A stretch of 45,886 nt of DNA from NCBI GenBank assembly GCA_023667845.1, contig JAMPIU010000039.1, positions 1 through 45,886 of the forward strand, given 5' to 3'. Positions 18,553 through 34,674 of this stretch are shown in pieces. The number at the start of each line of letters is the position of its first letter. Position 1 is the first letter of the stretch. The notes below the pieces were generated by a model. It did no database searches. It was not told where the DNA came from and saw only the letters and a program-made list of their open reading frames with translations. The position numbers and the translations under genes are program-made. This DNA comes from Dehalobacter sp. Its GTDB lineage: Bacteria; Bacillota; Desulfitobacteriia; Desulfitobacteriales; Syntrophobotulaceae.

Positions 18553-19094
18553 ATGAATGCTGATATAAACGATATAACCGAAAGGACGCCGGAGATTATC
18601 GCCGCTGAAATAACCATGATTAAAGAACAGGCCAAAAAATACATGTTAGTCAGCGCCATTGAAATAGGACGGCGCCTTTTGGAGGCCAAGGAAAAGATCC
18701 CTTATGGTAAATATGTTTCATGGCTGGAGAACGCCGTGCAGTATACCGAGCGCACAGCCTATCATCTTATGCGCATAGCGGAAGAATATGGTGCCGGTCT
18801 GTTCGGCTTCGCCGACCCAAGCGCATCGCCGAGATAGAACTTGAAAGCAAGATCTTAAAGCTCAACCTGTCCATGACCCAGGCAGACGCCCGCTTCGTTC
18901 TGATAGCCCAAGGATTCGACGATCTGTTTATCGCTATGAGCGAAATGGCCGCAGCGGACCCGAATGCTTTCAAGCTTTATTTAATTCATACCAACCAGTT
19001 TATATCAAAAATGTCGAAGAAGTTAAGTCGAATTGAGAAAGCTGCTCCCGCTGCTCCCGAAGTTCCGGCAACTCCTGAAGCTCCCGCCCCATGA
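18553..19094 (+). pseudogene. DUF3102-family gene, internally deleted and frameshifted
   Basis: The N-terminal part (EIIAAEITMIKEQAKKYMLV, GRRLLEAKEKIPYGKYVSWL, NAVQYTERTAYHLMRIAEEY) is standard DUF3102, a mobile-element-associated family. After LFGFADP the frame breaks at 18837. The C-terminal part (LNLSMTQADARFVLIAQGFD ...) resumes in another frame, with the middle of the family missing. A good AGGAGG precedes ATG 18553. The Pro/Ala-rich tail ends at 19094. Confidence 0.75.
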
Positions 19095-19199: not shown

Positions 19200-19886
19200 A
19201 TGGGAAGAAGAGTTCATTATGAAAAGAAATTGGAAGCAGTAGAAAAATACAAGCGAGGAGATGGAACCCAGGATAGCATAGCACGGGAATATGGAGTAAA
19301 GAAAGCTAGTTTTCAGCAATGGATAGCAAATTATGAGTCCATGGGTCCATCTGGGTTAGCACTCCAAAAGACAAATAACAGATACAGTTTGGAACTTAAA
19401 ACCACAGCAGTAGAGGCTTACATCCAGGGTGAAGGAAGCCTATTGGAGATATGTAAGAAGTTTAGCATCCGTGGTAAAGCACAACTTTTAGATTGGATAA
19501 CGATGTATAATGGTCATAAAGATTTTCGGGCTACCAGCGGCCGAGGTAGAGGAAGAGGGATGTATATGACCAAAGGACGGTTGACCACGTTAGATGAGCG
19601 GATTGAAATTGTCAGTTACTGCATAGCCAAAGGTAAGGACTACAGAGCAGCAATAGACAAGTATGAGATATCCTACCAGCAGATATATAGCTCGGTACGA
19701 AAGTATGAGGTAAAGGGAGTAGCCGGCCTTATCGACAAACGAGGGAAAAACAAGCCGATGGATGAAATGACTGAAGTCGAACGCCTTCGAGTAGAGAACA
19801 AGATGCTCAAAGCCGAGAACAAACAAAAAGAAATGGAAATTGCTGTGTTAAAAAAAGTCCAGGAGATCGAAAGGAGGCGGGGCTAA
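19200..19886 (+). CDS. IS3-family transposase OrfA
   Basis: The 228-aa DNA-binding subunit has two or three tandem helix-turn-helix units (DSIAREYGVKKASFQQWI, LEICKKFSIRGKAQLLDWI, AAIDKYEISYQQIYSSVRKY). A C-terminal leucine-zipper coil (VERLRVENKMLKAENKQKEM) follows. A run of seven A (19850-19856) near the end is a likely -1 slippery site for making the OrfAB fusion. GGGGAG precedes ATG 19200. Confidence 0.9.
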   Translation: MGRRVHYEKKLEAVEKYKRGDGTQDSIAREYGVKKASFQQWIANYESMGPSGLALQKTNNRYSLELKTTAVEAYIQGEGSLLEICKKFSIRGKAQLLDWITMYNGHKDFRATSGRGRGRGMYMTKGRLTTLDERIEIVSYCIAKGKDYRAAIDKYEISYQQIYSSVRKYEVKGVAGLIDKRGKNKPMDEMTEVERLRVENKMLKAENKQKEMEIAVLKKVQEIERRRG

Positions 19887-19927
19887 GCGGTGTCCGGCAG
19901 GAAAGGCTTTACCTAGCTGTAAAGGAG

Positions 19928-20773
19928 TTGCACGAAAAAGAAAGATACCCGGTAGAAAATATTTGTAGGATATTAGACCTGAATAGGTCCTCCTATTACA
20001 AATGGCTTCACCGCAGCAAGAGTGTCAGTGAGTATGAGAACGAAGATCTTCTTCACAAGCTTGGTTATCTTTACGCAGAATTTAACGGAATATATGGATA
20101 CCGGAGACTGACAGATGAACTGAATGCCCGGTACAAGACCAACTACAACTACAAGCGTATATACCGTCTTACCCAACTGGTGGGATTAAAAGCAGTTATC
20201 CGCAGAAAACGTCCGCAATACCAACGTTCCACGCCGGAAGTTACAACTGAGAACCTTCTTAATCGTGACTTTATAGCTAAAAACCTTAACGAGAAATGGT
20301 TGACTGACGTTACGGAATTCAAGTATGGAGATCATTCAAAGTTGTATCTGAGCGCTATCCTTGATCTTAAAGATAACGGTATTGTCTCTTTCACCATGGG
20401 CCGGAGTAACAATAACCAACTCGTATTTGACACCTTCGATTTGGCCATTTCCAGATACCCTAACGCTCACCCTCTATTCCATAGTGACCGAGGTTATCAA
20501 TATACAAGTAAACAATTCAGAACCAGATTGGATAGAGCTGGAATGAAACAAAGCATGTCCCGTGTTGGCCGCTGCATCGACAATGGCCCTATGGAAGGCT
20601 TCTGGGGTATTCTCAAATGTGAGATGTTCTACCTTGGAAACTTCAGGGATTATGACAGCCTTGCAGCAGCCATTGAGAGCTACATATATTTTTATAACTA
20701 CAAACGACGGCAAAAAAAGTTAAATAAATTGGCTCCAATGACCTATCGCCAGTTGCTCGAAAATGTTGCATAA
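19928..20773 (+). CDS. IS3-family transposase OrfB (DDE integrase)
   Basis: This is the catalytic subunit with an rve integrase core. WLTDVTEFKYGD gives the first Asp, LFHSDRGYQYTS the second, and NGPMEGFWGILKCE the Glu of DDE. The HTH_21 region YGYRRLTDELNARY precedes it. The -1 frame is open back to the A7 run at 19850, so translation probably enters by frameshifting rather than at the TTG at 19928. Confidence 0.92.
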   Translation: MHEKERYPVENICRILDLNRSSYYKWLHRSKSVSEYENEDLLHKLGYLYAEFNGIYGYRRLTDELNARYKTNYNYKRIYRLTQLVGLKAVIRRKRPQYQRSTPEVTTENLLNRDFIAKNLNEKWLTDVTEFKYGDHSKLYLSAILDLKDNGIVSFTMGRSNNNQLVFDTFDLAISRYPNAHPLFHSDRGYQYTSKQFRTRLDRAGMKQSMSRVGRCIDNGPMEGFWGILKCEMFYLGNFRDYDSLAAAIESYIYFYNYKRRQKKLNKLAPMTYRQLLENVA

Positions 20774-21806: not shown

Positions 21807-22044
21807 TCGAAACTTCGAACGATTAACCGGCTTTTTTGACGGATATATTGACTTAATAGCCAGAACGTTTCACTTCCTCCCTAACGCGGATAGGTCATAC
21901 ACTGTTAGACGGCGATGCTTTTTATCTTGCCTAAAGAAAAATATCCTACTTTATTATAATAAATATTAACACATATTATAGGATGAATGACAGGAATAGT
22001 GCTGAGATTGATTTTCTTATTGATAACGGTAGGATGTAATTCCC

Positions 22045-22209
22045 ATGGAAGTAAAAGCCGAAGTGAATCTGCAGGCAAAAAGTTTGAAGACTTTTCGCGA
22101 AAAATTCAATCCGAAAATTTCATTGCGTATTTCAATGGCAGATTACAAAAAAGAGGATTGGCTGATAAATTTGCCTCTTTACGCGATTGGGACTATCGAT
22201 AAGGTTTAA
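22045..22209 (+). CDS. Small hypothetical protein (54 aa)
   Basis: The reading frame MEVKAEVNLQAKSLKTFR ... ISMADYKKEDWLINLPLYAI ... DKV looks like a compact folded protein. A TAGGATG site lies 7-8 nt before ATG 22045. A longer ORF in another frame covers the same DNA but has an improbable composition. I do not know the family. It lies between vanW and the recombinase remnant, with a terminator 115 bp downstream. Confidence 0.5.
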   Translation: MEVKAEVNLQAKSLKTFREKFNPKISLRISMADYKKEDWLINLPLYAIGTIDKV

Positions 22210-22324
22210 CAGAAAAGCAAGACGGATTTGCTCTGATTTATTTTACTGCTGACCACCAGTTTGTTAGAATGTGTTAGAATCGGTGCTAGAATAAGTAAAT
22301 ATAAATATGCGGTTTATAAACTTA

Positions 22325-22349
22325 AGCCGCCCTTCGGGGCGGTTTTTTT
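22325..22349 (+). terminator. Intrinsic terminator
   Basis: A CCGCCC-TTCG-GGGCGG stem-loop is flanked by AAG and a run of seven T, with a UUCG-type tetraloop. It ends the transcript of the small gene at 22045. Confidence 0.9.
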
Positions 22350-22431
22350 ATGCCTGTAAGGAGGTGATCGTGGCAAGATAAACAAGATTAACCCATGCAT
22401 TCCTGGCGTAATACCCCGCTGTGCGGCTCCT

Positions 22432-22528
22432 GGTTTTTGCCGCAATAATAGTCGGCGACACGGGACAGCGGCAAAAACCGCGGTGAAGCGAAGGCTGAAA
22501 AGAGATGCTGAAATGCGCCTCTTTTCAG
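22432..22528 (+). repeat. Two consecutive perfect inverted repeats before the recombinase remnant
   Basis: GGTTTTTGCCGC (22432-22443) pairs with GCGGCAAAAACC (22468-22479), and CTGAAAAGAG (22495-22504) pairs with CTCTTTTCAG (22519-22528). They lie between a terminator and the truncated recombinase. They may be recombinase arm sites, IS ends or a structured leader. Confidence 0.6.
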
Positions 22529-22887
22529 GCCAAGCGAAGCCGCCAACGGGGGACCGAAAGCTATTTAAGAAAAGCTACGATAATACCTACACCGACTATG
22601 TCTGTGTGGATGAGATGGGCAAGCTGTTTCACCCCAACTACATCACCAGGCATTTCGGATATCTGTTGAAGCGGTATCAATTTAGAAAAATTCGCTTTCA
22701 CGATTTGCATCACTCCTGCGCCAGTTTGTTTTTGACGCATGGCATTCCCATGAAAGCGATTCAGGAGTGGCTCGGCCATTCCACTTTCGCGACCACGGCG
22801 GATATCTACTCGCACGTGGATTTCAGTTCCAAGCAGGAATCAGTAAAGCCATCAGTGCCGCCTTTGGCAAACAGAAAAAACCGATAA
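22483..22887 (+). pseudogene. Tyrosine recombinase (integrase), C-terminal fragment, inactive
   Basis: The convincing part starts near 22560 (YTDYVCVDEMGKLFHPNYIT) and covers the C-terminal catalytic half: IRFHDLHHSCASLFLTHGI, MKAIQEWLGHSTFATTADIY with the nucleophile Tyr, then SHVDFSSKQ. The N-terminal arm-binding and core-binding domains are missing. The H-x-x-R of the catalytic box reads HDLHH instead of HDLRH, so an essential Arg is lost. This is a dead element integrase. Confidence 0.82.
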
Positions 22888-22980
22888 CAGATGCTGTCAG
22901 AGCGTGAAGAACCGGAGGCGACCCAAGAGAAGGTACACGAATCGGAATGACCATAAGTATGATATAACAGGAGAGAGAAA

Positions 22981-23316
22981 ATGGATCAAGATTATTTGGC
23001 GTTATTAAAAGACTGCCCGGAAACGCTCTCATTACAGCATTTCCGGGCAGTCGCATATATCAGCAAACGAAAAGCAAAATGGCTGCTGGAAAACGGAATA
23101 ATTCCCTGCCAGGATTCGGGAAAACAGACCCGTCGCTTTCTGATTCGACGCAGCGTTGTTGCGGAGTTTCTTCGGCGGCAGGACGCGGGAGAGTTGGAAG
23201 CTGTCATCCCTGTTGGCGCGTTCAACGGCAAACCTCCCACTGTTGATTCGTCATCTCTCATGGAACCGGAGGAGTTATTTCCTTTTCTGCTTGATGAGTG
23301 GGCGGACGAACTTTAG
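22981..23316 (+). CDS. Excisionase-like helix-turn-helix protein
   Basis: The 111-aa protein has a MerR/excisionase-type winged helix: SLQHFRAVAYISKRKAKWLL, then GIIPCQDSGKQTRRFLIRRS and VVAEFLRR. An acidic C-terminal tail follows. Such proteins accompany integrases in Clostridial integrative elements. Here it lies 93 bp after the recombinase remnant, in the same direction, behind AGGAGAGAG. It seems intact although its presumed partner is broken. Confidence 0.65.
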   Translation: MDQDYLALLKDCPETLSLQHFRAVAYISKRKAKWLLENGIIPCQDSGKQTRRFLIRRSVVAEFLRRQDAGELEAVIPVGAFNGKPPTVDSSSLMEPEELFPFLLDEWADEL

Positions 23317-23396
23317 TAATTTGAACCATCCTCTGAAGACTTTGTGAGTACCTTCTCCTTTGGCTTTGAACCCAACAAAGGCTTTTTTAAATCTAA

Positions 23397-23586
23397 AAAT
23401 CGTACGGAATTTCAGTACTGAAAGAATGGCTATTCCAGGTAAGAAAAAGAGAGCCCAATTTGTTTGCACATTGGGCCCTCTATAGGAAATCTATGTATGA
23501 GTGAATGATCGGAGCCGATATGAACCGAGAGGTTCACGTATGGATCTGAGAGAGCCTCGAGGTGAATCTCCCCTTGGCTACTCGAC
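23397..23586 (+). mobile_element. Group II intron remnant: reverse transcriptase tail and domains V-VI
   Basis: Positions 23397-23504 encode the end of a group II intron protein (KEWLFQVRKREPNLFAHWAL..). Seven bases later domain V begins with GAGCCGATATG, AACC-GAGA-GGTT and CACGTATGG, keeping the catalytic AGC. Domain VI and the 3' end CTACTCGAC follow at about 23586. All upstream intron domains and most of the protein are absent. The last intron base is estimated. Confidence 0.78.
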
Positions 23587-23625
23587 TGGAAGGCCGGCCA
23601 TTCAAATAATGGATGGCCTCCTATC

Positions 23626-24570
23626 CTATTTTTCATTCAAAGCTCGGGTAAGTTCCGGAACAATTTCATACAAATCTCCGGCAATACCATAGTCGCTGTA
23701 ACGGAACATAGGGGCTCGAGGGTCCTTGTTGATGCATACAATGACCCGGGACTCGTTCACGCCGACCATATGCTGGGTTTGACCGGAAATACCCACAGCA
23801 ATGTATAGTTCCGGCTTAAGCTGAATCCCGGAGACCCCGATGTACGGCTCACCTTCCGCAAAGGGCGGATTTCCTTCGGTAACAGGACGTGAATAGCCAA
23901 CCTCACCGCCGAGCGCATCGGCGAGCCCTCTGGCCAGCCCGAGGTCTTCCTTGGTGGCAAAACCTCTTCCAGCCCCAACAACAATCTTCGCCGCGCCAAT
24001 ATTGGAGGCATTTGATTTTTTAGGTTTACTCTCCAGCTTGGTTATTTGGGTCACAGGCTCAACGAATTCAACGTGTTCCAGTTGGTCGCTGCGGGAAGTG
24101 TCGGCTACAGCCTTAGTAAAAACTCCCGAACGGACTGTTGCAATAAGCGTACCCCCCAACGGTTGTTCAACACGTATGACGGCTCCGCCCAGAATTATAT
24201 GCCGAACCTGAAATGATCCATCTACCACTTTTATTTCCTTAGCGTTTACTATTGCTGCCATATCGAGAGCAGCTGCCACACGGCCGGCAACGGCCTTTCC
24301 TCTTGTGGTCGCCGCAACCAGAAAAGCCGCTGGTTTTTCGGTCATGATAAGTTTATTGAGGGTTGGCACAAAATCGTCGATGATTCTATTGCCTATCTCA
24401 CCGAGCCAGTATACTTTATCTGCTCCCATAGAAGCTGCCGACATGGCCTCAGATTCTGAACCGATGATTATGGCAGCTATGCTCCCCCCGCTTGTCCCAA
24501 CGAGCTTGTTGGCCCCGCCCAACATTTCAGGCAGCAATGTTGCGTTGTCCGAAAATATAAAGATATTCAT
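23626..24570 (-). CDS. fixB: Electron transfer flavoprotein alpha subunit, FixB type
   Basis: The 314-aa FAD-binding subunit pairs with FixA. The N-terminal half carries MAAIVNAKEIKVVDG. The C-terminal FAD domain shows KIVVGAGRGFATKEDLGLAR, GYSRPVTEGNPPF and the strongly conserved SGQTQHMVGV, then NKDPRAPMFRYSDYGIAGDL. In FixABCX systems the complex takes electrons from NADH or an acyl-CoA partner and splits them between quinone (via FixC) and a low-potential acceptor (via FixX). It lies 32 bp behind fixA on the reverse strand. Confidence 0.93.
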   Translation of the reverse strand: MNIFIFSDNATLLPEMLGGANKLVGTSGGSIAAIIIGSESEAMSAASMGADKVYWLGEIGNRIIDDFVPTLNKLIMTEKPAAFLVAATTRGKAVAGRVAAALDMAAIVNAKEIKVVDGSFQVRHIILGGAVIRVEQPLGGTLIATVRSGVFTKAVADTSRSDQLEHVEFVEPVTQITKLESKPKKSNASNIGAAKIVVGAGRGFATKEDLGLARGLADALGGEVGYSRPVTEGNPPFAEGEPYIGVSGIQLKPELYIAVGISGQTQHMVGVNESRVIVCINKDPRAPMFRYSDYGIAGDLYEIVPELTRALNEK

Positions 24571-24602
24571 TTTATTCTCTCCTTCGGAGTATTGTCACGT
24601 TC

Positions 24603-25376
24603 CTACAGAAGCCCTTCCGCCTCGATATTACGGATCAGTTCGGCGACCGTTTCCTGGATAGTGCCGTTTATGATTATACCTTTACGGTCCACATTTTCCG
24701 GTGCCGACGCACTTATGACATCGATACGGGCAGCCTGACCGGCATCAATGCCGGCGTCACTTAAGCTCCAAACTTTAACAGATTTTTTACCCGCTGAAAG
24801 GATCGCCTTCATACCGGGCATAGGCGGCGTGTTAATACTGGAGGTAACTGTGAGCGCAGCCGGGAGCCGGACTTCCAGAACCTCGATTTCATCTTCCAGC
24901 AATCGCTCAACTCTTACCCGATCCCCCATAGGCTCAATAGCGTCAATCGAATTGAGATTGGCCCAGGCGAGTCTCTCGCCAACCTGTAAGCCGGTTTGCT
25001 GGAAATAATAATCCGCCGAACCATCGCCAAAGAGCACCAGATCGGCTTCTAGCTTTTTGATCATCTCAGCCAACACCTTGCTTATTACAGCAGTATCGGC
25101 ATCCCCCAAAATAGAATCGGTTACCAGATGAAGTTCCTCAGGTCCGCGGGATAACAGATCCTTTCTCAATTGTGTAGCCTCGATACGGGAAGAACCGACT
25201 GAAAGCGCGAGCAGTCTGCTACCGGTAGTGTTAGCCAGCTGAACTCCAGCTTCTATAGCTTGAAGGTCATAATCGCTGATTTGCCATTCAGCCTTATCGA
25301 GACTGTATGAGCCGTCCGGCCGGATTTCTATGTCCTGGGTATTGGGAACAAATTTGCAACAGACAACAATATTCAT
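24603..25376 (-). CDS. fixA: Electron transfer flavoprotein beta subunit, FixA type
   Basis: The 257-aa protein starts MNIVVCCKFVPNTQDIEIRP, then SDYDLQAIEAGVQLA, typical FixA/EtfB. The nucleotide-binding region has LVLFGDGSADYYFQQTGLQV, and the recognition-loop region VEVLEVRLPAALTVTSSINT is visible. It is first in a reverse-strand fixAB operon, divergent from fixCX. Three 11-bp direct repeats lie 66 bp ahead of its ATG. AAAGGAGGAAG precedes the start. Confidence 0.93.
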   Translation of the reverse strand: MNIVVCCKFVPNTQDIEIRPDGSYSLDKAEWQISDYDLQAIEAGVQLANTTGSRLLALSVGSSRIEATQLRKDLLSRGPEELHLVTDSILGDADTAVISKVLAEMIKKLEADLVLFGDGSADYYFQQTGLQVGERLAWANLNSIDAIEPMGDRVRVERLLEDEIEVLEVRLPAALTVTSSINTPPMPGMKAILSAGKKSVKVWSLSDAGIDAGQAARIDVISASAPENVDRKGIIINGTIQETVAELIRNIEAEGLL

Positions 25377-25427
25377 GTTCTTCCTCCTTTCCTCTTTATA
25401 GAATTTATAATCGGATTTTAACAGAGG

Positions 25428-25472
25428 AGAATAATCGGGAAATCAACAACGAATCAACAACGAATCAACAAC
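25428..25472 (-). promoter_or_regulatory. Candidate BTAD/SARP-type operator and promoter of fixAB
   Basis: The reverse strand has three GTTGATT heptamers (ending at 25463, 25452 and 25441), each exactly 11 bp from the next. A 7-bp spacer and a -10-like TATTCT (25433-25428) follow. This one-turn-spaced direct-repeat geometry close to the -10 is what SARP activators use. An isolated copy lies at 25524-25532. Confidence 0.65.
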
Positions 25473-25576
25473 GTTATTTGATAAACATACTTCTATTAAT
25501 ATCGCCTGAGATTTTATTGATTTATCAACAACATATTTTGGCATTAAACAAAAAGAAAATAACATCTTTTGATATA

Positions 25577-25610
25577 TTTGTTGATTATACGTTGCTTATG
25601 TAGTTATTCC
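25577..25610 (+). promoter_or_regulatory. Candidate BTAD/SARP-type operator and promoter of fixCX
   Basis: GTTGATT (25580-25586) and GTTGCTT (25591-25597) are 11 bp apart on the forward strand. A 7-bp spacer and TATTCC (25605-25610) follow. Orientation and spacing mirror the fixAB site, giving a 200-nt leader to fixC. Confidence 0.6.
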
Positions 25611-25710
25611 TCATCAATAAAATATACTCAAAGTCATAGTTGCTAACAGATATACTAGGTAAGCTGATTTTGTTCAGTTCTAGAAATCAAAACTGAAAGG
25701 GGTTATAAGA

Positions 25711-25800
25711 GTGGGGTTATCATATGCTACAAATTCACACTTGATGTCCGGGAGATCAAAGTCAATGCCGATGGCTCAACCAGTCTAAGAACAGAAAGGA
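25711..25800 (+). pseudogene. fixA: N-terminal scrap of a second fixA in front of fixC
   Basis: After a one-base shift from a GTG behind GAAAGGGG, the frame reads VIICYKFTLDVREIKVNADG followed by STSLRTE. This strongly resembles the FixA N-terminus (compare CYKCVPDEQDIAVNNADGS of E. coli FixA). It then runs straight into the fixC ribosome site. It indicates that fixC was once preceded by its own fixA (and presumably fixB), since deleted. Confidence 0.7.
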
Positions 25801-25809
25801 GGTTCACAA

Positions 25810-27099
25810 ATGAGTGACTATGATGCCATTGTGGTAGGGGCGGGACCGGCCGGTTTAGCTGCCGCCTACAGGCTTGCTAAGGCAGGCGCGGAAGTCTTGG
25901 TGATAGAGCGTGGCTCTTACCCCGGGGCGAAAAACCTCTCAGGCGGGCTGTTGTTTGGCCGGATTCTGAGGGAACTTATCCCTGAGTTTCCGCAGGAAGC
26001 GCCTCTGGAGCGCCACATCAACCGCTATATTTTAACCTTCATGACTAAGGACTCCACATTCAACCTTGACTTTAAGGGCCAGGGCTTTTCGCAGGAACCG
26101 CATAACGGTTATTCGGTTCTGCGGGCTAAGTTTGATCGTTGGTTGGGGGAAAAAGCCGAAGAAGCCGGAGCCACCCTTATTACTAATATTAAGGTTGATT
26201 CACTGCTTATGGAAAACAACGTTGTTAAAGGTATTGTGGCCGGGGAAGAAGAAATGACGGCGAATGTCGTAATCGCTGCCGATGGGGTCCTTTCCTTTCT
26301 CGCTGAACAAGCCGGTCTCCGTGATCGGTACAATCCTGCTAACTTTGCCGTCGGGGTAAAAGAATTGATCGGATTGGACCGAACTACGCTGGAAGAACGT
26401 TTTGGTCTTACCGGTAATGAAGGTACCGAATACGCTATGCTCGGCTATCCGACCAAAGGTGTTTCCGGAGGCGCTTTTTTCTATACGAATGCCGATAGTA
26501 TTTCGGTTGGTCTGGTCATGCATATAGATCACACCAGTTCCCATCAGGTCAGCCCGTCCGAGGTCCTGGAGGATTTTCTGGCTCATCCCGCTATTGCACC
26601 GCTGATCCGCGGCGGCAAGGTATTGGAGTACGGTGCCCATGTTGTGCCTGAAGGCGGCTACAACGCGCTCCAGAAACTATTCACCGACGGTCTTTTAGTA
26701 GTTGGCGATGCGGCCGGCTTGGGTTCCAATAACGGCTTTACGGTAAGAGGGATGGATTTGGCGATAGCCTCCGGCATTTATGCTGCAGATACAATCCTGG
26801 AGGCTAAAGCCAAAGGTGACTTCTCGGCCGCAACACTGGCCTCGTATAAAAAGAAATTAGAAGACAGTTTTGTGCTCAAAGACATGAAAACCTATGCCGG
26901 TGCGGCAGCTTTCATGAAGGGTGATCGGCTATTTAACGCCTATCCAAAATTGGTGGAAGGCATATTCACTTCTATCTATACCCAGCAGAGTACCCCGAAG
27001 GAGAATCTTCTGAAGAGCGTATTGAAGGCCAGAAAAGAGAGCGGTGTTACCTACATGAGCTTGGGTAGTGATGTTTGGAAGGCGGTGAAAAATCTATGA
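25810..27099 (+). CDS. fixC: FixC-type FAD-dependent ETF:quinone oxidoreductase
   Basis: The 429-aa flavoprotein passes electrons from FixAB to the quinone pool at the membrane. The dinucleotide fold is DYDAIVVGAGPAGLAAAYRL, followed by ERGSYPGAKNLSGGLLFGRI. The second FAD motif is DGLLVVGDAAGLGSNNGFTV, with RGMDLAIASGIYAA. It starts behind GAAAGGAGG and ends overlapping fixX by 4 bp (ATGA). Confidence 0.94.
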   Translation: MSDYDAIVVGAGPAGLAAAYRLAKAGAEVLVIERGSYPGAKNLSGGLLFGRILRELIPEFPQEAPLERHINRYILTFMTKDSTFNLDFKGQGFSQEPHNGYSVLRAKFDRWLGEKAEEAGATLITNIKVDSLLMENNVVKGIVAGEEEMTANVVIAADGVLSFLAEQAGLRDRYNPANFAVGVKELIGLDRTTLEERFGLTGNEGTEYAMLGYPTKGVSGGAFFYTNADSISVGLVMHIDHTSSHQVSPSEVLEDFLAHPAIAPLIRGGKVLEYGAHVVPEGGYNALQKLFTDGLLVVGDAAGLGSNNGFTVRGMDLAIASGIYAADTILEAKAKGDFSAATLASYKKKLEDSFVLKDMKTYAGAAAFMKGDRLFNAYPKLVEGIFTSIYTQQSTPKENLLKSVLKARKESGVTYMSLGSDVWKAVKNL

Positions 27100-27377
27100 A
27101 CGGCTTGAGTGTTCCAGAAAAGCTTTCTATTAATAAGTATGAACTCGACGAGAGTCCGCACATCAAGGTTGACCAAGAAATCTGCCGGAAACGTTGTCAG
27201 AACAGGGTCTGTTTGTTTATTTGTCCCGCCAAGGTCTACAATGAACAGAATGGTGAACTTGCTGTCGATCACGCGGGCTGCCTGGAATGCGGTACTTGTT
27301 TAGTCGCCTGTACCCAGAAAGCCATAGATTGGCAATACCCGGCAGGCGGTTTTGGCATAGTCTATCGAAACGGTTAA
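27096..27377 (+). CDS. fixX: FixX-type ferredoxin-like protein
   Basis: The 93-aa iron-sulfur partner of FixC has the cluster motif CLECGTCLVAC preceded by ICPAKVYN, enough for one [4Fe-4S] cluster. A further Cys group (CRKRCQNRVC) near residue 30 is common in FixX. I chose ATG 27096, which overlaps the fixC stop; a GTG-like start seven codons earlier is less likely. It ends at YPAGGFGIVYRNG, the usual FixX tail. Confidence 0.93.
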   Translation: MNGLSVPEKLSINKYELDESPHIKVDQEICRKRCQNRVCLFICPAKVYNEQNGELAVDHAGCLECGTCLVACTQKAIDWQYPAGGFGIVYRNG

Positions 27378-27562
27378 ACAAAAAATTTGATTAAAAATGG
27401 TTCAAGAAACTAATAAGAGCGGTGAAGAACACCACTCCAAAACAATTATCTGTGCTCACTTCGCTTAGCAGTAGGTGGGCACGGATTTAATTATGTTACA
27501 TTGTAAGCACACGGAGAAGCCTTCTCTACTTTGCCATTTTTCGTTATCTTTCCGTAGAGTTT

Positions 27563-29518
27563 TTAGAGGTTCTCCTTATTATTCTGAACAGACAGAGCAA
27601 TATTTGAATGAAGCCATTGACGCCGGGATGGAGTTAATAGCTGATAGGCACCTTCTCTCACCATAGGATTATGAAAAGCATAACCTTGTTCATTGTCAAT
27701 AACTATAAAACCTTTTTCCAACAACTCTTCAATGCCTCTGAGCACCTCTGTTTGGGATAAATTAGTCGCCTTAACTATTGTAGCGTAATCGAAAACTTTA
27801 CCGAAAACTGCGGCGGCATCTATAACATTGCGGGCTTGCTCCGACAGACCAACAAATTGCGAAAAAAGTCCGTCCTTAATAGTCTGAGGTAAAACAGATT
27901 TATTAATAATAGAATTAATATCCACATTACCTTCGGGTGCCGCTTCAATTTCATCTCGAACATATCTGAGCAACTCAATCATAATAGAAGGATTTCCATC
28001 TGAAAGCTTCTTTAGCCAATCGACCAGAACCTCGCTATCGCCCATTTGGAAAAACTGGGCAAAAACACGGATGCTGGCGTTGTCTAATGGTTCTAGGGAT
28101 ATGACATTAAGCAGATTTAATTTGTTCAGAAGCTTCTTAAATTTAACTAGCATCGGATTGATGCTACTCAGTAAGCCTTCTGTACAGAGAAAAAATACAT
28201 CCAGATTTTCACTATACTTAATAATATTCCCTAATAATATTAGGGAATCGTTATCTGTCCACTGAATATCATCAATAGCAAAAAGCAATTTTCGTTTTTT
28301 ACTTAAAATAACTATAAATTGATAAATAGATTTAATTATATCATAATCGTGGCAGGGTTTTTGAAAAGGCGATTTGTCTTGAGGGTCAATTTCCGGTACA
28401 AAGCATCGTAATTCACCCCACCAATCAGGGCCTAGCTCCGTTTTTACATCCTCTTTTAACTCATCCCAATTTACGGTTTGAATACATCTTCGAATAGCGC
28501 TAGAAATGGGGTGGTATAGAATATTATTATTCAACTCAAGACATTCACTATAAAAAATAAAGCCTTCCCAGTTTTGCATGAACTCTTGTATAAGTCTGGT
28601 CTTACCAATACCAGGAGAACCGTGAACCAACACAAGCTTTCCTGGGAGACACAATCTTTCAAGCATTTTCATTTCCCCGTCCCGACCATTGAAAGGCACG
28701 TGGAAGCGCGAAGTGGCAACGTGATTATATCCAGTTTCTTGAGCATTTTTGTTGATTCTTTGTTGAGCATGAGCAAACTTTTTTATAGGCTTGTCATTAA
28801 TAATTGCTTCATACAGTTCCTGCACCTCTTTCATTGGCGGCAGTCCAACTTCTTCAGACAAAATATGCCTCAGCTTTTCATATACTTGAGTTACCTTTAG
28901 ATAATTTCCCATATGATAATGGGCAAGTATGGCGTTGCGGTATAATTCTTCGCATAAGGGATCAATACTTAATGCTTTTTGTATGACAAACAAGCATTGT
29001 TGATAATCACCCGCATCCAAATAAAGCTCCGATAAAGTTACTAAGCCCCTTAACATCAGCATTTTGTAATGCTCTTGCAGTAGTATTATCCAATCATTGA
29101 ATGCCGGAGATTCGCTAAGGGAGAATCCGTCCAGAAAATCGCCACGGTATAAGTTGAGGGTAGATAGCGTGTCTTTTAGTGAGTTAGAGTTTTTTACAAT
29201 AAATAATTCAAATATTTGTGTATCCCTTTTTACCTCCGGTGCAATTGATACATAGGCTTCATTGCTGATAATTATGTTGGGAATGTGCTTTTTAATTTCA
29301 TAAAGATGTACATTAAGATTATGCTGCGCACTATAAATATCTCTATTCGGCCAGAAGATTTCTACAAGGCGTTCTCTTCTGATTGGTCTGTTTTGTTCCG
29401 CTAAGTAATAGATAAGTCCCCTGCACTTTTTACGTTTAAGCTGTAATTGGAGTTCATTACTGGAGATAATAGGCTTTCCCAAGAGGAAGATTCTCAAAGC
29501 ATTATCATGAGTAGACAT
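27563..29518 (-). CDS. BTAD-domain transcriptional activator with AAA/STAND ATPase
   Basis: The 651-aa regulator has an N-terminal OmpR-like winged helix (residues about 8-95: GLIYYLAEQNRPIRRERLVE, HNLNVHLYEIKKHI). A bacterial transcriptional activator (BTAD) helical domain follows (about 100-245: YRGDFLDGFSLSESPAFNDW, EELYRNAILAHY). An ATPase comes next with Walker A GSPGIGKTRL near 300 and Walker B LLFAIDDIQWTD near 405. The long C-terminal TPR region of larger homologues is absent. SARP/BTAD proteins bind direct repeats with 11-bp period, and such repeats precede the flavoprotein genes around it. I infer it activates the fix, oxidoreductase and dehydrogenase genes; the ligand is unknown. 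Confidence 0.88.
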   Translation of the reverse strand: MSTHDNALRIFLLGKPIISSNELQLQLKRKKCRGLIYYLAEQNRPIRRERLVEIFWPNRDIYSAQHNLNVHLYEIKKHIPNIIISNEAYVSIAPEVKRDTQIFELFIVKNSNSLKDTLSTLNLYRGDFLDGFSLSESPAFNDWIILLQEHYKMLMLRGLVTLSELYLDAGDYQQCLFVIQKALSIDPLCEELYRNAILAHYHMGNYLKVTQVYEKLRHILSEEVGLPPMKEVQELYEAIINDKPIKKFAHAQQRINKNAQETGYNHVATSRFHVPFNGRDGEMKMLERLCLPGKLVLVHGSPGIGKTRLIQEFMQNWEGFIFYSECLELNNNILYHPISSAIRRCIQTVNWDELKEDVKTELGPDWWGELRCFVPEIDPQDKSPFQKPCHDYDIIKSIYQFIVILSKKRKLLFAIDDIQWTDNDSLILLGNIIKYSENLDVFFLCTEGLLSSINPMLVKFKKLLNKLNLLNVISLEPLDNASIRVFAQFFQMGDSEVLVDWLKKLSDGNPSIMIELLRYVRDEIEAAPEGNVDINSIINKSVLPQTIKDGLFSQFVGLSEQARNVIDAAAVFGKVFDYATIVKATNLSQTEVLRGIEELLEKGFIVIDNEQGYAFHNPMVREGAYQLLTPSRRQWLHSNIALSVQNNKENL

Positions 29519-29605
29519 AATGTTCCCTCCTAGTATTGAAAATGCGTTGCTGAAACCCCTTAACTATACTAAATCACCAGTTTTATATGAAATTGCTTAC
29601 TTTTT

Positions 29606-29625
29606 GTTGATTGCACCGTTATTGT
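29606..29625 (+). promoter_or_regulatory. Candidate BTAD-type site before the FAD oxidoreductase gene
   Basis: GTTGATT (29606-29612), a 7-bp spacer and TATTGT (29620-29625) reproduce the geometry at fixA and fixC. The partner heptamer 11 bp upstream (GCTTACT) is degenerate, so this is weaker than the fix sites. Confidence 0.4.
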
Positions 29626-29689
29626 TAATTGTTTTAATAACAGTGAACCAGTTTTAAAATAATGTTCCCTTACAGAATTTCCCAAGCGT

Positions 29690-29719
29690 ATTGTATTACC
29701 TTTTTTTAATCATTGTCAA
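29690..29719 (-). promoter_or_regulatory. Possible sigma-A promoter of the BTAD regulator gene
   Basis: The reverse strand has TTGACA, an 18-bp spacer and TACAAT about 170 bp before the regulator ATG. Confidence 0.4.
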
Positions 29720-29828
29720 CAAATTTTTTACGGCAATAAACCGACCCGACTTTGGCAAAAGGATGGAAAAGGACACGGCTGGCTTGCCGCGCCATTACCA
29801 TAAATTTATTACAGAAAGGACAGATATT

Positions 29829-29900
29829 ATGAAAGAGAATTTTGGAATGCGTGTCAGTCTCAGATCAAATTCAGAGGGGGGCGGTGAACAAGTTGGATAA
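29829..29900 (+). CDS. Possible leader peptide overlapping the oxidoreductase start (23 aa)
   Basis: ATG 29829 lies 8 nt behind AAAGGA. The ORF encodes MKENFGMRVSLRSNSEGGGE followed by QVG, and stops at 29900, 17 bp past the GTG of the next gene in another frame. The strong ribosome site and overlap suggest translational coupling. It could also be a chance ORF. Confidence 0.35.
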   Translation: MKENFGMRVSLRSNSEGGGEQVG

Positions 29901-31251
29901 GAACAAGAAAATTATTATTGTTGGAGCTGGCTGCGCGGGGCTTACAACCGCCCACAAGCTGATGAAGGAAGGTTATACCAACTTCGAGATTCTGGAGCGA
30001 AATCCCGTTGGCGGCGGACGTATGCTCACCTATAAGGAGAACGGTTATTCTTGTGACCTAGCGGCCCAAGTCGTGCATCCCGGGTATAAGTACGCCAAGA
30101 ATCTCATCCACGAGCTCGGCATGGATGACCAACTCTGCACGGTAAAATTGAGCCAAATGTTGATTGACGACGGGGAAAAACTAATCCCGACAATACCGAC
30201 CGGAACCCCGGAACTTGATAAATACAACGCCGAATGGATGGCTAAAATGGGGCCTGAAAACTTCATGAGGCTGGCGGCGGACATAAAGGCGCTCTGTGAT
30301 AATGAAAAGTACCACGAGGGTTCTGTAGAATGGGGCATACACTTGGACAACAAAGGAAACTTCAGGGACTATATTGTTGACAACTATGGTGAGGGTGTGC
30401 TGAAAGGATTTGTCGAGCCCGTACTGTCGGCGATTGGTCTGGTGCATCCGGAGAACACCGGCGTCATATTCGGCTCGATGATAATGTGGACCATGCTGGC
30501 TGGCGCAGCGGATGTCCTTGCCAACGGAGTAGGCAGCCTTGCCGAGGCCATTATCAAAAAGTGCGGAGATAAGGTTAAGACGGGCGTCGAGGTACAGGAG
30601 ATCGTCATCAAAGACGGAAAGGCTGTTGGCGTCAAGACAAAGAGCGGATTTATGCCGGCCGACGCTGTTGTCTGTGCCGCGTCCGCAAATAAAGCCCTAA
30701 AGATTCTGCCCAACGCTCCCGAATCAATTCGCTCCGCGCTCTCAAAGGTTACTTACTGTCCGACGATAACCACGCTTCTCTTCCTCGATAGGGACAAGGC
30801 GCGGTTTCCATATGACGCCACTGGAGCACTGCTCATGCGGAGCAACGGTAACCCAATGGGTGCAATTTCGCTGTCGTCCTCCAAAACTGAACGCTGCGTC
30901 CCGCCCGGAAAAGAGTGTATCCTTATGTGCCTTTATGAGGAAGGGGCAAGGAAGCTTTGGAACGCAAGCGATGAGGAAGTGCTAAATGAGGTTATGCGTT
31001 ATATGGGTCGCATCATGCCAGAAACCGTAAACGCCATAGAGGGTATTCATACTGCCAGATTTGCTGAAGGGAACTATATCATGGAACCGGGTTGCGCAAC
31101 AGCGATAAAGTACATGCGCGAGAATCACTACAAGGATGTGGAGGGGTTGTATCTCTGCGGCGAGTATATGTACACCGGTTCCTACGAGTCGGCTATCGCC
31201 GCGGGAGGCCGTACCGCCCAAGTAATCATGGGGCAGTTGGAGCACATATAG
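29884..31251 (+). CDS. FAD-dependent oxidoreductase, amine-oxidase/phytoene-desaturase fold
   Basis: The flavoprotein has about 455 aa. The N-terminal dinucleotide fold reads KIIIVGAGCAGLTTAHKLMK, followed by the ERNPVGGGRMLTY motif typical of protoporphyrinogen oxidase/CrtI relatives. The C-terminal FAD motif is GLYLCGEYMYTGSYESAIAA followed by GGRTAQVIM. I favour the GTG at 29884 behind AGAGGGGGG (TTG 29893 is an alternative). The substrate is unknown. Its position beside fixCX, the BTAD regulator and an acyl-CoA dehydrogenase suggests a role in the same redox module. Confidence 0.85.
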   Translation: MNKLDKNKKIIIVGAGCAGLTTAHKLMKEGYTNFEILERNPVGGGRMLTYKENGYSCDLAAQVVHPGYKYAKNLIHELGMDDQLCTVKLSQMLIDDGEKLIPTIPTGTPELDKYNAEWMAKMGPENFMRLAADIKALCDNEKYHEGSVEWGIHLDNKGNFRDYIVDNYGEGVLKGFVEPVLSAIGLVHPENTGVIFGSMIMWTMLAGAADVLANGVGSLAEAIIKKCGDKVKTGVEVQEIVIKDGKAVGVKTKSGFMPADAVVCAASANKALKILPNAPESIRSALSKVTYCPTITTLLFLDRDKARFPYDATGALLMRSNGNPMGAISLSSSKTERCVPPGKECILMCLYEEGARKLWNASDEEVLNEVMRYMGRIMPETVNAIEGIHTARFAEGNYIMEPGCATAIKYMRENHYKDVEGLYLCGEYMYTGSYESAIAAGGRTAQVIMGQLEHI

Positions 31252-31377
31252 CTTCGCGGCTTTTAAAAGAAACCCATATAGGCCAGCGGTCAGGCAGGTG
31301 CAAAACATTTTGAACTAAACAGCCGGCGCGGTAGAGCGACGGAACAGACAATCCCTTAGCCAAAAGCAAAAATATCA

Positions 31378-31430
31378 GATACCTTTTTGAGAGCATAGAA
31401 AAGGCTTAAAAACAGGTATCTTTTTATTTT
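31378..31430 (+). terminator. Terminator after the FAD oxidoreductase gene
   Basis: AGATACCT...AGGTATCT is followed by TTTTTATTTT. The stem is 8 bp with a long loop, 125 bp after the stop. Confidence 0.6.
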
Positions 31431-31470
31431 GGGTGTGACAAATTTTTGTGACAAAAGTTTTTGCTGAATA

Positions 31471-31540
31471 GCGAAAACACCAAGGACTGAGGACAATTAG
31501 TCCGAAAGTTCATACCCTTGGTGCTATTTCGCTTTTTGTA
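31471..31540. terminator. Large interrupted hairpin between convergent genes
   Basis: AGCGAAAACACCAAGG pairs with CCTTGGTGCTATTTCGCT with a small bulge, and an inner GGACT/AGTCC pair lies in the loop. A TTTTTG run follows on the forward strand. It lies between the convergent oxidoreductase and acyl-CoA dehydrogenase genes and could terminate either. Nothing else is seen in 31252-31599. Confidence 0.6.
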
Positions 31541-31599
31541 TATGGTATTTTGTTACGGAATTTACGTTACAGTCTGCTGATAACATGATCACGAATGTT

Positions 31600-32805
31600 T
31601 TATACACACTCAAATTCTGCGCCAGGCAGCCTCATGTATTTGGCAGCGGTAGCCAACTGCATCTCGCTGGTGCTAACTCCGATTGCAAACCCCACTGCGT
31701 CACGTAAATGGCGTTCGATGCCGGTATCGGGGTTATACCCTGCGCAGCCCCACAACTGAATACAGTCGGAAGTAATTTCACGGGCCGTATCACAGATATA
31801 CGCTTTAGCAAGGGGTGCGTAAACTACTGCGTCTTTATGGTTCGTTTCAATCATTCTGGTTGCGGCGATTAAGAAAGAGCGGCTCGCTTCTATTTTGCTC
31901 TTCATAAGCGCCAGCTTGTACTGGATTGAGCCAAGAGATGCGAGTGGCTGGAAATTTGTAGTGCGATGCTTGAGATATTCTACAGTCTTGTCAAAAGCTG
32001 CTCCCATTGCCCCCATAGCAAGAGCGGCACTTGTTACTGCATTTCCTTTCCCCCTAGGTACTGCATCCACCTTTTTCCTATTAATAACAGTGCCCGTTTT
32101 GGCTCCAAATTCTTTAGGTACGCGGACGTTATTCAACTCTATCGCACCATACATCGGACTATTTCCCATTTCAGGATTGGGGGTTATTTTCAGACCAGGA
32201 GTATTCTTTGCATCCATTGCCCATCTGTGCATATCGCCGTCAACAAGCCCGGTTACCATAAGAACGTCACAGAAAGATGCACCTGATGAAAATACCTTAG
32301 TGCCATTTATTACCCACTCGTCTCCTTCGAGCCTCCCGATATCGGCGTGTTCACTATAGTTACACTGTCCCTCGGGACTATTCTCCGCATCCGCAATAAT
32401 AAGTTCGCCTGAGAGAAGCGCCTCTCCCCATTTGGCGAAAGCGGCAGGTAACTCTAGCGCAAGCAGAAGTGCAAACCCGCCGTTTTCCCCAGTGTGGATA
32501 GCTAATCCTCCGTTAACTCTGGCAACCTCTTCAAGGATTATAGTTTGAGCGGTTAATCGCTGCCCATACCCGCCAAGCTCTTCCGGCACAAATATTCTGA
32601 GATAACCTTTATCCCCAAACTTCTTGATAAATTCCTTTAATAAAGGATCTGCCGTTTCTGCCTTAAATGATTCTCTGAACCTGGGATCAATGAATTCCTC
32701 ACAAAATTGTCTAACATTTTTCTTTAGCAGCCACTCCTCTTCCGTATACCCGTAACCTTCCCCGCCGGTTGCTATGCCCGGCATAGCGCCATGTAAATCG
32801 GACAT
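31600..32805 (-). CDS. Acyl-CoA dehydrogenase family protein
   Basis: The 401-aa flavoenzyme has the standard three domains: an N-terminal helical part (FGDKGYLRIFVPEELGGYGQ), the middle beta domain (NYSEHADIGRLEGDEWVING, TKVFSSGASFCDVLMVTG), and a C-terminal helical domain with CIQLWGCAGYNPDTGIERHL and TSEMQLATAAKY. By eye the Glu of the IYEGTSEIQ box is replaced (IGVSTSEMQ), and the alternative Glu used by isovaleryl-CoA dehydrogenase is also absent. With FixABCX next door, a CaiA-like enoyl-CoA reductase role is plausible. GGGGCAAGAGAG lies before the ATG. Confidence 0.9.
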   Translation of the reverse strand: MSDLHGAMPGIATGGEGYGYTEEEWLLKKNVRQFCEEFIDPRFRESFKAETADPLLKEFIKKFGDKGYLRIFVPEELGGYGQRLTAQTIILEEVARVNGGLAIHTGENGGFALLLALELPAAFAKWGEALLSGELIIADAENSPEGQCNYSEHADIGRLEGDEWVINGTKVFSSGASFCDVLMVTGLVDGDMHRWAMDAKNTPGLKITPNPEMGNSPMYGAIELNNVRVPKEFGAKTGTVINRKKVDAVPRGKGNAVTSAALAMGAMGAAFDKTVEYLKHRTTNFQPLASLGSIQYKLALMKSKIEASRSFLIAATRMIETNHKDAVVYAPLAKAYICDTAREITSDCIQLWGCAGYNPDTGIERHLRDAVGFAIGVSTSEMQLATAAKYMRLPGAEFECV

Positions 32806-32871
32806 TACTCTCTTGCCCCTTTCTCATTCAAATTTGTAAATATGCCTTATAAAAAAATAATAATCATTAGA

Positions 32872-32889
32872 CGTCAACATAAAGACAAC
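32872..32889 (-). promoter_or_regulatory. Candidate BTAD/SARP-type operator before the acyl-CoA dehydrogenase gene
   Basis: On the reverse strand GTTGTCT and GTTGACG start exactly 11 bp apart, followed by an AT-rich TATTAT about 9 bp later. The nearest GTTG lies about 70 bp from the ATG, close to the 68 bp seen at fixA. Confidence 0.5.
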
Positions 32890-33066
32890 AAATAGTAACA
32901 GTATTGCACACCACGGGCAGCAGTTCGCTGACACTTTTCATTGGCATTTTTTTAGATCTTGCTAATTTCTTTGATCCCATAACTGGTCAGAAGCATTAAA
33001 GACATGGGCGGTCTTGCGCTGAAGCTCATAACACCGGGATACGATGGCATGCCGAACCGGTTAGTA

Positions 33067-33441
33067 CTACTGCCTAATGCCAAGAGAGGTATGGGTTTTT
33101 CCTGATCCAGGGTTACCGATCATGACGATGTTTTGTCTATTCTTAATAAAATCACAAGATGCAAGTTCCTGAATATATCCTTCTGAAACATGTTCTAATC
33201 TGGTAAAGTCAAATTCGTCCAAAGTCTTCACTACAGGAAATCCGGCTTTTCTGATCCTGCGAAGCTGACCGGCTTCCTGTCTTTGCCTGAGCTCAGCTTT
33301 CATCAGTTCACATAAGAATTTATCGTAGCCATCGCCTGGCGAGAGTTGCCTTATGATATTTTCGTAACCGCTGAATGTTGGGGTTCTCAGTTGTTTAGCG
33401 TAGAGTTTAATCGTCTCTTTTAAAGGATTGATACTACTCAT
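33067..33441 (-). pseudogene. istB: IstB-like ATPase helper, truncated after Walker A
   Basis: The 124-codon fragment has the IstB N-terminus (LYAKQLRTPTFSGYENIIRQ, then LMKAELRQRQEAGQLRRIRK) and reaches the Walker A NIVMIGNPGSGKTHTSLGI, then stops. The rest of the AAA+ domain is missing. Confidence 0.85.
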
Positions 33442-33477
33442 ACCACAGCACCCACACTAAGGAAGCTGTCGTATTTT

Positions 33478-34045
33478 TCAAACTGTGGTTTTGTTACTTT
33501 GACATCCCATCTTGAAGGCATTTTTACCGGTTGAGAAGTCGTCTACTCTGGCAATGAGGTTTCGCCCAGGATCAAATTTAAATTTAGGAAGGTTAGCCAT
33601 CCTTGCACTTGCGCTCTGCGCCATGACGCCAACGGTTTGCTCTCTGCCTGTGATGTTGTTCTCCCGGTATTTTAGACACCGGCGCAGGATTTCCGCATTT
33701 AGCTCCTCGATGGTTGCTACCCGGGGGATGGGAACAAGGATATTGCGTCTTCCCCAGCCGACCAGCCCCTCAACGAGCCCTTTTTCATGTCCGGCTGCGA
33801 TGTTGCAAAATTCTGCTTTGAAAGCATAGTGAGCGGCTAGAGCAGCATACCTGTACTGTATTCCGGCATGGAAGCCAAAGCCTTCTTTTACTGCTACTTT
33901 GGCATTGTCAAAGATCACTTTGCGAGGATCCCCGCCAAAATACTCCAATCCACAGACTTGTCCTTCAAGGAAGCTTTCTTCGTTTTGCCGGTAAAATTCT
34001 TGGCAATAGATATCTGAACTGTAACATTCCCGCCTTTTCTTTCAT
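33478..34045 (-). pseudogene. istA: IstA transposase, C-terminal fragment
   Basis: The frame is open from about 34045 and reads SSDIYCQEFYRQNEESFLEG, GLEYFGGDPRKVIFDNAKVA, AAGHEKGLVEGLVGWGRRNI. This matches the later part of the IS21 integrase core and the region beyond it. The N-terminal helix-turn-helix and the first catalytic Asp are lost. Confidence 0.85.
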
Positions 34046-34089
34046 TTCTAAAATTAGACTCCGCTTTAAATAAGGTTTAAATCCATTAG

Positions 34090-34674
34090 CTAATGCCCGT
34101 ACGCCCCTTGATAATGCTTCACGCAGAAATAAATATCGTAGGCGTCTTTAGGTTTTCCTCTGCCTAACGCTGCAGTTTTCATAACTAAAAAGGGAATTAT
34201 GGAAACAACCCTAGCTGTACCGGAATCACCCGCCCCATCGGGGCGTTTCGCTTCTAATACAATTTCTGTTGCCCCTACTTCAAAAGCAAAATTACCACCT
34301 TTAGCTTTTAATGCTTTTAATCCTTGAATATGTTGACCTCTTTTGCTTTCATTTGTACCACCATACAAAAAGGCGAGTATATCTAAGTCAACCTCATAAG
34401 TTTGGGCTTCGTCAAACCCTTCCTTACCTGTGCCTCCACTGACAATGATATATTGAAAATATTTGTCTTTATAGAGTTCTGCGGCTTTATCTAATCTGCC
34501 CTGCAATCTTTGTGACGGAGTTCCATCCAATTCAACCTTATTTCCTAAAACGATCCCAACATCACACTGACCCAGGTTATCGACTAATCCATCAATCGTG
34601 ATCAAAATAGTATGTGATAGAAACCATAGTAGACCGGCAATTATTATTACTTTTAAAAACCTCTTCAGCATCAT
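34090..34674 (-). CDS. Chimera: DUF218 (YdcF/SanA-like) N-terminus fused to an AbiEii-type nucleotidyltransferase tail
   Basis: Residues 1-91 are the start of a DUF218 envelope protein: one membrane segment (VIIIAGLLWFLSHTILI), DVGIVLGNKVELDGTPSQRL and IIVSGGTGKEGFDEA. After that the sequence switches to EVDLDILAFLYGGTNESKRG, then RPDGAGDSGTARVVSIIPFL and KPKDAYDIYFCVKHYQG. This tail matches AbiEii-like nucleotidyltransferases, themselves cut at both ends. The reading frame is open across the joint. I infer a deletion fused two unrelated genes; a working product is doubtful. Confidence 0.7.
   Translation of the reverse strand: MMLKRFLKVIIIAGLLWFLSHTILITIDGLVDNLGQCDVGIVLGNKVELDGTPSQRLQGRLDKAAELYKDKYFQYIIVSGGTGKEGFDEAQTYEVDLDILAFLYGGTNESKRGQHIQGLKALKAKGGNFAFEVGATEIVLEAKRPDGAGDSGTARVVSIIPFLVMKTAALGRGKPKDAYDIYFCVKHYQGAYGH

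Follow-up and report, generated by a model that had tools for sequence, protein, structure and literature searches.

An open reading frame that runs without interruption through two unrelated protein families raises the question of whether it encodes a genuine fusion protein or is a relic of gene decay. ORF 34090-34674 (minus strand), in the 45,886-nt stretch of Dehalobacter sp. DNA analysed here (the window), is such a case, and automatic annotation could call it a DUF218 protein or a fusion family. An initial annotation made from the sequence had described it as an in-frame chimera of an envelope DUF218 protein and an AbiEii-type nucleotidyltransferase, open throughout; both points are borne out, since the frame is open over 194 codons (194 aa), the Pfam DUF218 match is above its cut-off and AbiEii relatives align at 54-65% identity from codon 92. 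The ORF is an accidental join of the front half of an envelope-type DUF218 gene to the middle of a broken AbiEii toxin gene; it is very probably a chimeric pseudogene joint, a real feature of the DNA and ordinary genome debris. A working protein is unlikely to come from it, and the biological weight of such a decayed joint is small.

Two gene fragments joined in frame

The components of the ORF and its immediate continuation are as follows.

34405-34674, minus strand: 5' part of an envelope-type DUF218 gene (codons 1-90 of 189), with 98% DNA identity to the intact genes L015 (from 9785) and L016 (9530-10099); PF02698 above cut-off
34402-34404, minus strand: joint codon CAA (Q91), which belongs to neither side
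34105-34401, minus strand: central portion of an AbiEii-type nucleotidyltransferase gene, sharing the reading frame of DUF218; this is exactly the stretch that tblastn with L065 and L075 matches, at 56-59%, in agreement with other relatives
34034-34105, minus strand: AbiEii homology continued in another frame, beyond the ORF (frameshift after KHYQ); 24 aa, 58% to L068/L070, E 7e-7 and 1.3e-6

The joint is sharp: in sequence alignments the DUF218 identity extends to 34405 and the AbiEii homology sets in at 34401, and the chimeric ORF reads GFDEAQTYEVDL across it. DNA identity to the intact DUF218 genes stops exactly after codon 90 (GACGAAGCC), in agreement with the earlier statement that the DUF218 side stops at GFDEA (residue 90). 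When the halves were searched separately, as had been proposed, each matched its own family, i.e. DUF218 and the AbiEii-type nucleotidyltransferases, and on these sequence comparisons chance is excluded as the source of the two homologies.

The DUF218 half is well preserved as far as it goes. Codons 1-90 differ at 5 of 270 nt from the gene of G002 and at 6 of 270 from that of G001, with 2-3 amino acid changes relative to the intact genes; the split may simply be recent. The Pfam match (PF02698, residues 38-93, 31.9 bits vs a cut-off of 27.6) covers profile positions 1-46 of 133, vs 1-133 in an intact relative, and the domain is thus incomplete. Like the SanA/ElyC-type membrane proteins of this family, the chimera has a hydrophobic anchor at its N-terminus and the domain's first third, but unlike them it stops after codon 90 of 189 and lacks the remainder. 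Because these codons are little changed and a purine-rich AGAGAGG still stands upstream of the ATG, translation of the chimera is possible.

A look for full DUF218 genes in related strains had been proposed, and they are found intact in two complete genomes of the same genus at the same place, with no AbiEii at the locus: uninterrupted in G001 (189 aa, L016 9530-10099), and whole in G002 (L015) with its start fused to a GNAT fragment. A more distant relative in G015 (61%) is also intact. The lost half of DUF218 is not found elsewhere in the Dehalobacter sp. assembly itself. In the G002 gene (L015 9638-10354, 238 aa) a truncated GNAT acetyltransferase is joined in frame to the start of DUF218 and Pfam sees both domains; GNAT and DUF218 are separate genes in the window, and neither GNAT gene is present at this place in G001. 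The GNAT-DUF218 gene is a second, independent in-frame deletion fusion of the same gene.

The AbiEii fragment and its relatives

As a query the 104-aa AbiEii half alone gave no match in 61 relatives, 299 genomes of the phylum or viral contigs, and the family was reached only via tblastn of plasmids, followed by a small alignment (A2) of the plasmid proteins found. The plasmid proteins align to the 104-aa tail at 34-53% identity (E 7e-6 to 4e-4), and at three of the plasmid loci an annotated AbiEi antitoxin gene lies directly upstream, overlapping the start of the AbiEii-type gene in two (Comamonas, Cupriavidus). Searched with the A2 alignment, 84,980 species genomes yielded 242 relatives; the best come from Erysipelotrichaceae, Oscillospiraceae and Lachnospiraceae, at 54-65% identity and E about 1e-38. 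Most of the closest full-length relatives have 277-284 aa; they open with the nucleotidyltransferase motifs (VGGWVP...SVDVDI), and DUF218 is absent from them. At all eight relative loci inspected, a gene of 357-374 aa ends at or overlaps the AbiEii start, and AbiEi_2 is above cut-off in each of the four upstream genes that were scanned. No solved structure was found to match a close AbiEii relative by sequence.

In the closest AbiEii relative (L063, about 3300, from a metagenome-assembled genome), the gene ends early by a frameshift in an A run, a few codons past the site of the window's own frameshift; L064, a near relative of L063, is intact, and the L063 frameshift is probably a coincidence or an assembly indel.

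The alignment of the window with L065 and L075 begins at 34401, where TYEV of one sequence faces SYDV of the other, and spans query residues 109-206; the second segment starts at query residue 207, directly after the first, with 50% identity for L075, and its score was never reached by shuffled peptides for five of the six relatives tested. The AbiEii gene is therefore frameshifted, and the stop codon of the ORF falls just past the frameshift rather than at the end of the homology. The initial annotation was right that the AbiEii piece is cut short, but the cut is not at the ORF's own end, as the homology continues in another frame to 34034. In all, ~108-116 N-terminal and ~45 C-terminal codons of AbiEii are lost.

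An early alignment had equated YEVDLDIL with the catalytic DVD motif; a trimmed alignment and closer relatives place it instead in a later V-D-V-D-x-L strand, and the internal deletion within the AbiEii piece that the first assignment implied was accordingly dropped.

The fragment starts after nucleotidyltransferase motifs I and II (hG[G/S] ... DhD), which are lost, while motifs III (K..R) and IV (+DxxD: KDAYD) are kept in the ORF (MKTAALGRGKPKDAYD). In the AbiEii that has been studied, toxicity and GTP binding depend on motifs I and II (PMC3985639), and a fragment without these catalytic motifs would be inactive. The piece thus resembles the AbiEii/DUF1814 nucleotidyltransferases of type IV toxin-antitoxin systems, whose genes are paired with AbiEi, in its middle part with motifs III and IV, but differs from them in that motifs I and II, the antitoxin gene and the last ~45 codons are missing and the sequence is frameshifted. 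The Pfam AbiEii profile gives the fragment 12.2 bits, below the cut-off of 22.5; since the full-length close relatives L064 and L070 are also under this cut-off, the profile is ill suited to judging this branch. The AbiEii kinship rests on tblastn and alignment matches, not on the Pfam profile. Homology to the full-length relatives supports the earlier proposal that an AbiEii-type nucleotidyltransferase gene once stood at the locus.

Other parts of AbiEii were not found elsewhere in the Dehalobacter sp. assembly, and PF08843 found no AbiEii in this genome. An AbiEi antitoxin gene had no match in the window, and the best match in the genome was at E 0.01 and 25% identity.

Conservation of the same full-length two-domain protein in other genomes had been named as the observation that would make the ORF a real fusion family, and no such protein appeared among the genomes searched. 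A DUF218-AbiEii fusion was found neither in the 61 relatives, nor in two draws from the phylum (299 and 398 genomes), nor among the closest AbiEii relatives from the 84,980 species. With the whole chimera as query, a scan of genome contigs gave no relative; the exact joint is absent from viral contigs, the surrounding DNA from plasmids and the protein from phages. There is thus no conserved DUF218-AbiEii fusion family in this material. A functional fusion that reuses the membrane anchor with the C-terminal domain of the nucleotidyltransferase would suit a frame that is open over 194 codons with its DUF218 part little changed, but it is extremely improbable given its absence from any second genome among those searched, the loss of half the DUF218 domain and of AbiEii motifs I and II, and the frameshift of the AbiEii homology before its own end. 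Just as little credence is given to translation of the chimera into a stable membrane-anchored protein with a new role, e.g. one in which the AbiEii C-terminal part would bind a nucleotide or a partner protein. In-frame joining is a one-in-three chance and selection is not needed to account for it. If translated, the pseudogene would yield a membrane anchor, part of a DUF218 domain and a nucleotidyltransferase fragment devoid of motifs I and II, a product that presumably does nothing.

A foreign block within the DUF218 gene

The DUF218 gene of the window is not simply truncated but split, and its end lies far from the joint.

21946-21956, minus strand: last 11 bp of the same DUF218 gene (TAATAAAGTAG, stop codon included), followed by native downstream sequence to 21899
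21957-34404, no strand assigned: 12.4 kb block inside DUF218, not at the locus in G001 and G002
22483-22887, plus strand: tyrosine recombinase of the phage integrase family, C-terminal half only, close to the block's left edge; PF00589, profile positions 88-170 of 172
33529-34032, minus strand: IS21 istA remnant, residues 157-324 of 490; at the amino acid level 70.8% identical to istA of L057 and L058
33447-33527, minus strand: IS21 istA remnant, residues 461-488 of 490, in another frame after an internal deletion of ~136 codons
33076-33432, minus strand: IS21 istB remnant, residues 4-122 of 251; 76.5% to istB of L057, Pfam/NCBIfam IstB

Window positions 21956-21899 align with 10344-10401 of L015 (G002) over 58 bp with one mismatch, starting 11 bp inside DUF218. 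Of the gene, 270 bp therefore remain at 34405-34674 and the final 11 bp at 21946-21956; the two pieces are 12.4 kb apart and 289 bp are missing. A tail at such a distance indicates that a foreign block was inserted in DUF218. This bears on a simpler reading, a deletion between old chromosomal neighbours DUF218 and a downstream abiE operon, which would fit two genes on the same strand that are both truncated at the joint; that reading is very unlikely, as the 3' tail of DUF218 lies 12.4 kb off, beyond the block, and in neither of the two other genomes that have this DUF218 does the locus contain AbiEii. The initial annotation's deletion joint stands, but insertion of a 12.4 kb block that brought AbiEii into DUF218 was no part of it.

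The block holds the integrase C-half, a weak HTH_17, Etf/Fix genes, a BTAD regulator, an amine oxidase, an acyl-CoA dehydrogenase, the IS21 debris and the AbiEii piece, of which the electron-transfer flavoprotein, FixC/FixX-like and acyl-CoA dehydrogenase genes were assigned by eye. As a unit it was not found in 30 relatives. Repeats of an inserting element were sought at the edges, and none was seen that the two edges share or that lies within either edge region; the right end of the block is deleted. The DNA of the block is foreign and decaying.

The decay is plainest on the right. AbiEii homology ends at 34034, cut by istA, which begins at 34032. The earlier view, that a deletion brought two unrelated broken genes together next to IS21 debris, is upheld. 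Mapped against copies in G005 and G026, the IS21 remnant lacks its ends, middle and tail, with the remaining pieces on one strand in the expected order, a layout such as repeated deletions would leave; several truncations (AbiEii, IS21) fall within 1.4 kb. Truncated genes beside transposase remnants are a known pattern and the same one is seen here, the difference being the chance in-frame join of two unrelated coding regions.

An erroneous join of two unrelated contigs by the assembler was weighed against these observations, as the assembly is a draft of 209 contigs with 3.7% estimated contamination. Each half is single copy, so that no repeat explains a wrong join, and the rest of DUF218 and of AbiEii is on no other contig of an assembly that is 99.95% complete, which likewise speaks against it; moreover the far edge of the block runs smoothly into native downstream DNA, and there are several joints in a row. 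An assembly chimera is accordingly very unlikely.

Proposed history and neighbouring observations

The arrangement suggests that DUF218 was interrupted close to its 3' end by the insertion of a foreign block, which carried an IS21 copy and a toxin-antitoxin operon of the AbiE type. The insertion site is next to the integrase remnant, and the integrase may have been the inserter. Later deletions would have eroded the block: one at the right edge would have taken 289 bp of DUF218 (codons 91 to about 186), the antitoxin gene and the first ~108-116 AbiEii codons, joining the remains in frame by chance, and further deletions would have removed the AbiEii 3' end, the left end of IS21, the middle of istA and the end of istB. 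The former presence of abiEi and the order of these events are likewise inferred. Insertion with one right-edge deletion would explain both losses at the joint, no further step being needed.

Beyond the initial annotation, the locus thus adds the block inside DUF218, the exact joints, the AbiEii frameshift and the loss of catalytic motifs, and it documents a foreign block with a toxin-antitoxin remnant arriving inside a gene that sister Dehalobacter genomes carry intact.

Other features of the region deserve mention. Between the FixX-like and amine oxidase genes of the block, positions 27563-29518 encode a regulator of 651 aa that has a BTAD and an AAA (weakly NACHT-like) domain. Outside the block, two adjacent ORFs at 19200-20773 look like a complete IS3-type transposase pair; they stand between a VanW gene and the ORF at 18553-19094 and are absent at this place in G001 and G002. 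The latter ORF is akin to a protein that has 307-343 aa in G001 and G002 (L016 10335-11258, L015 10473-11504); it appears to have been disrupted by a deletion within it and to lie in two overlapping frames.
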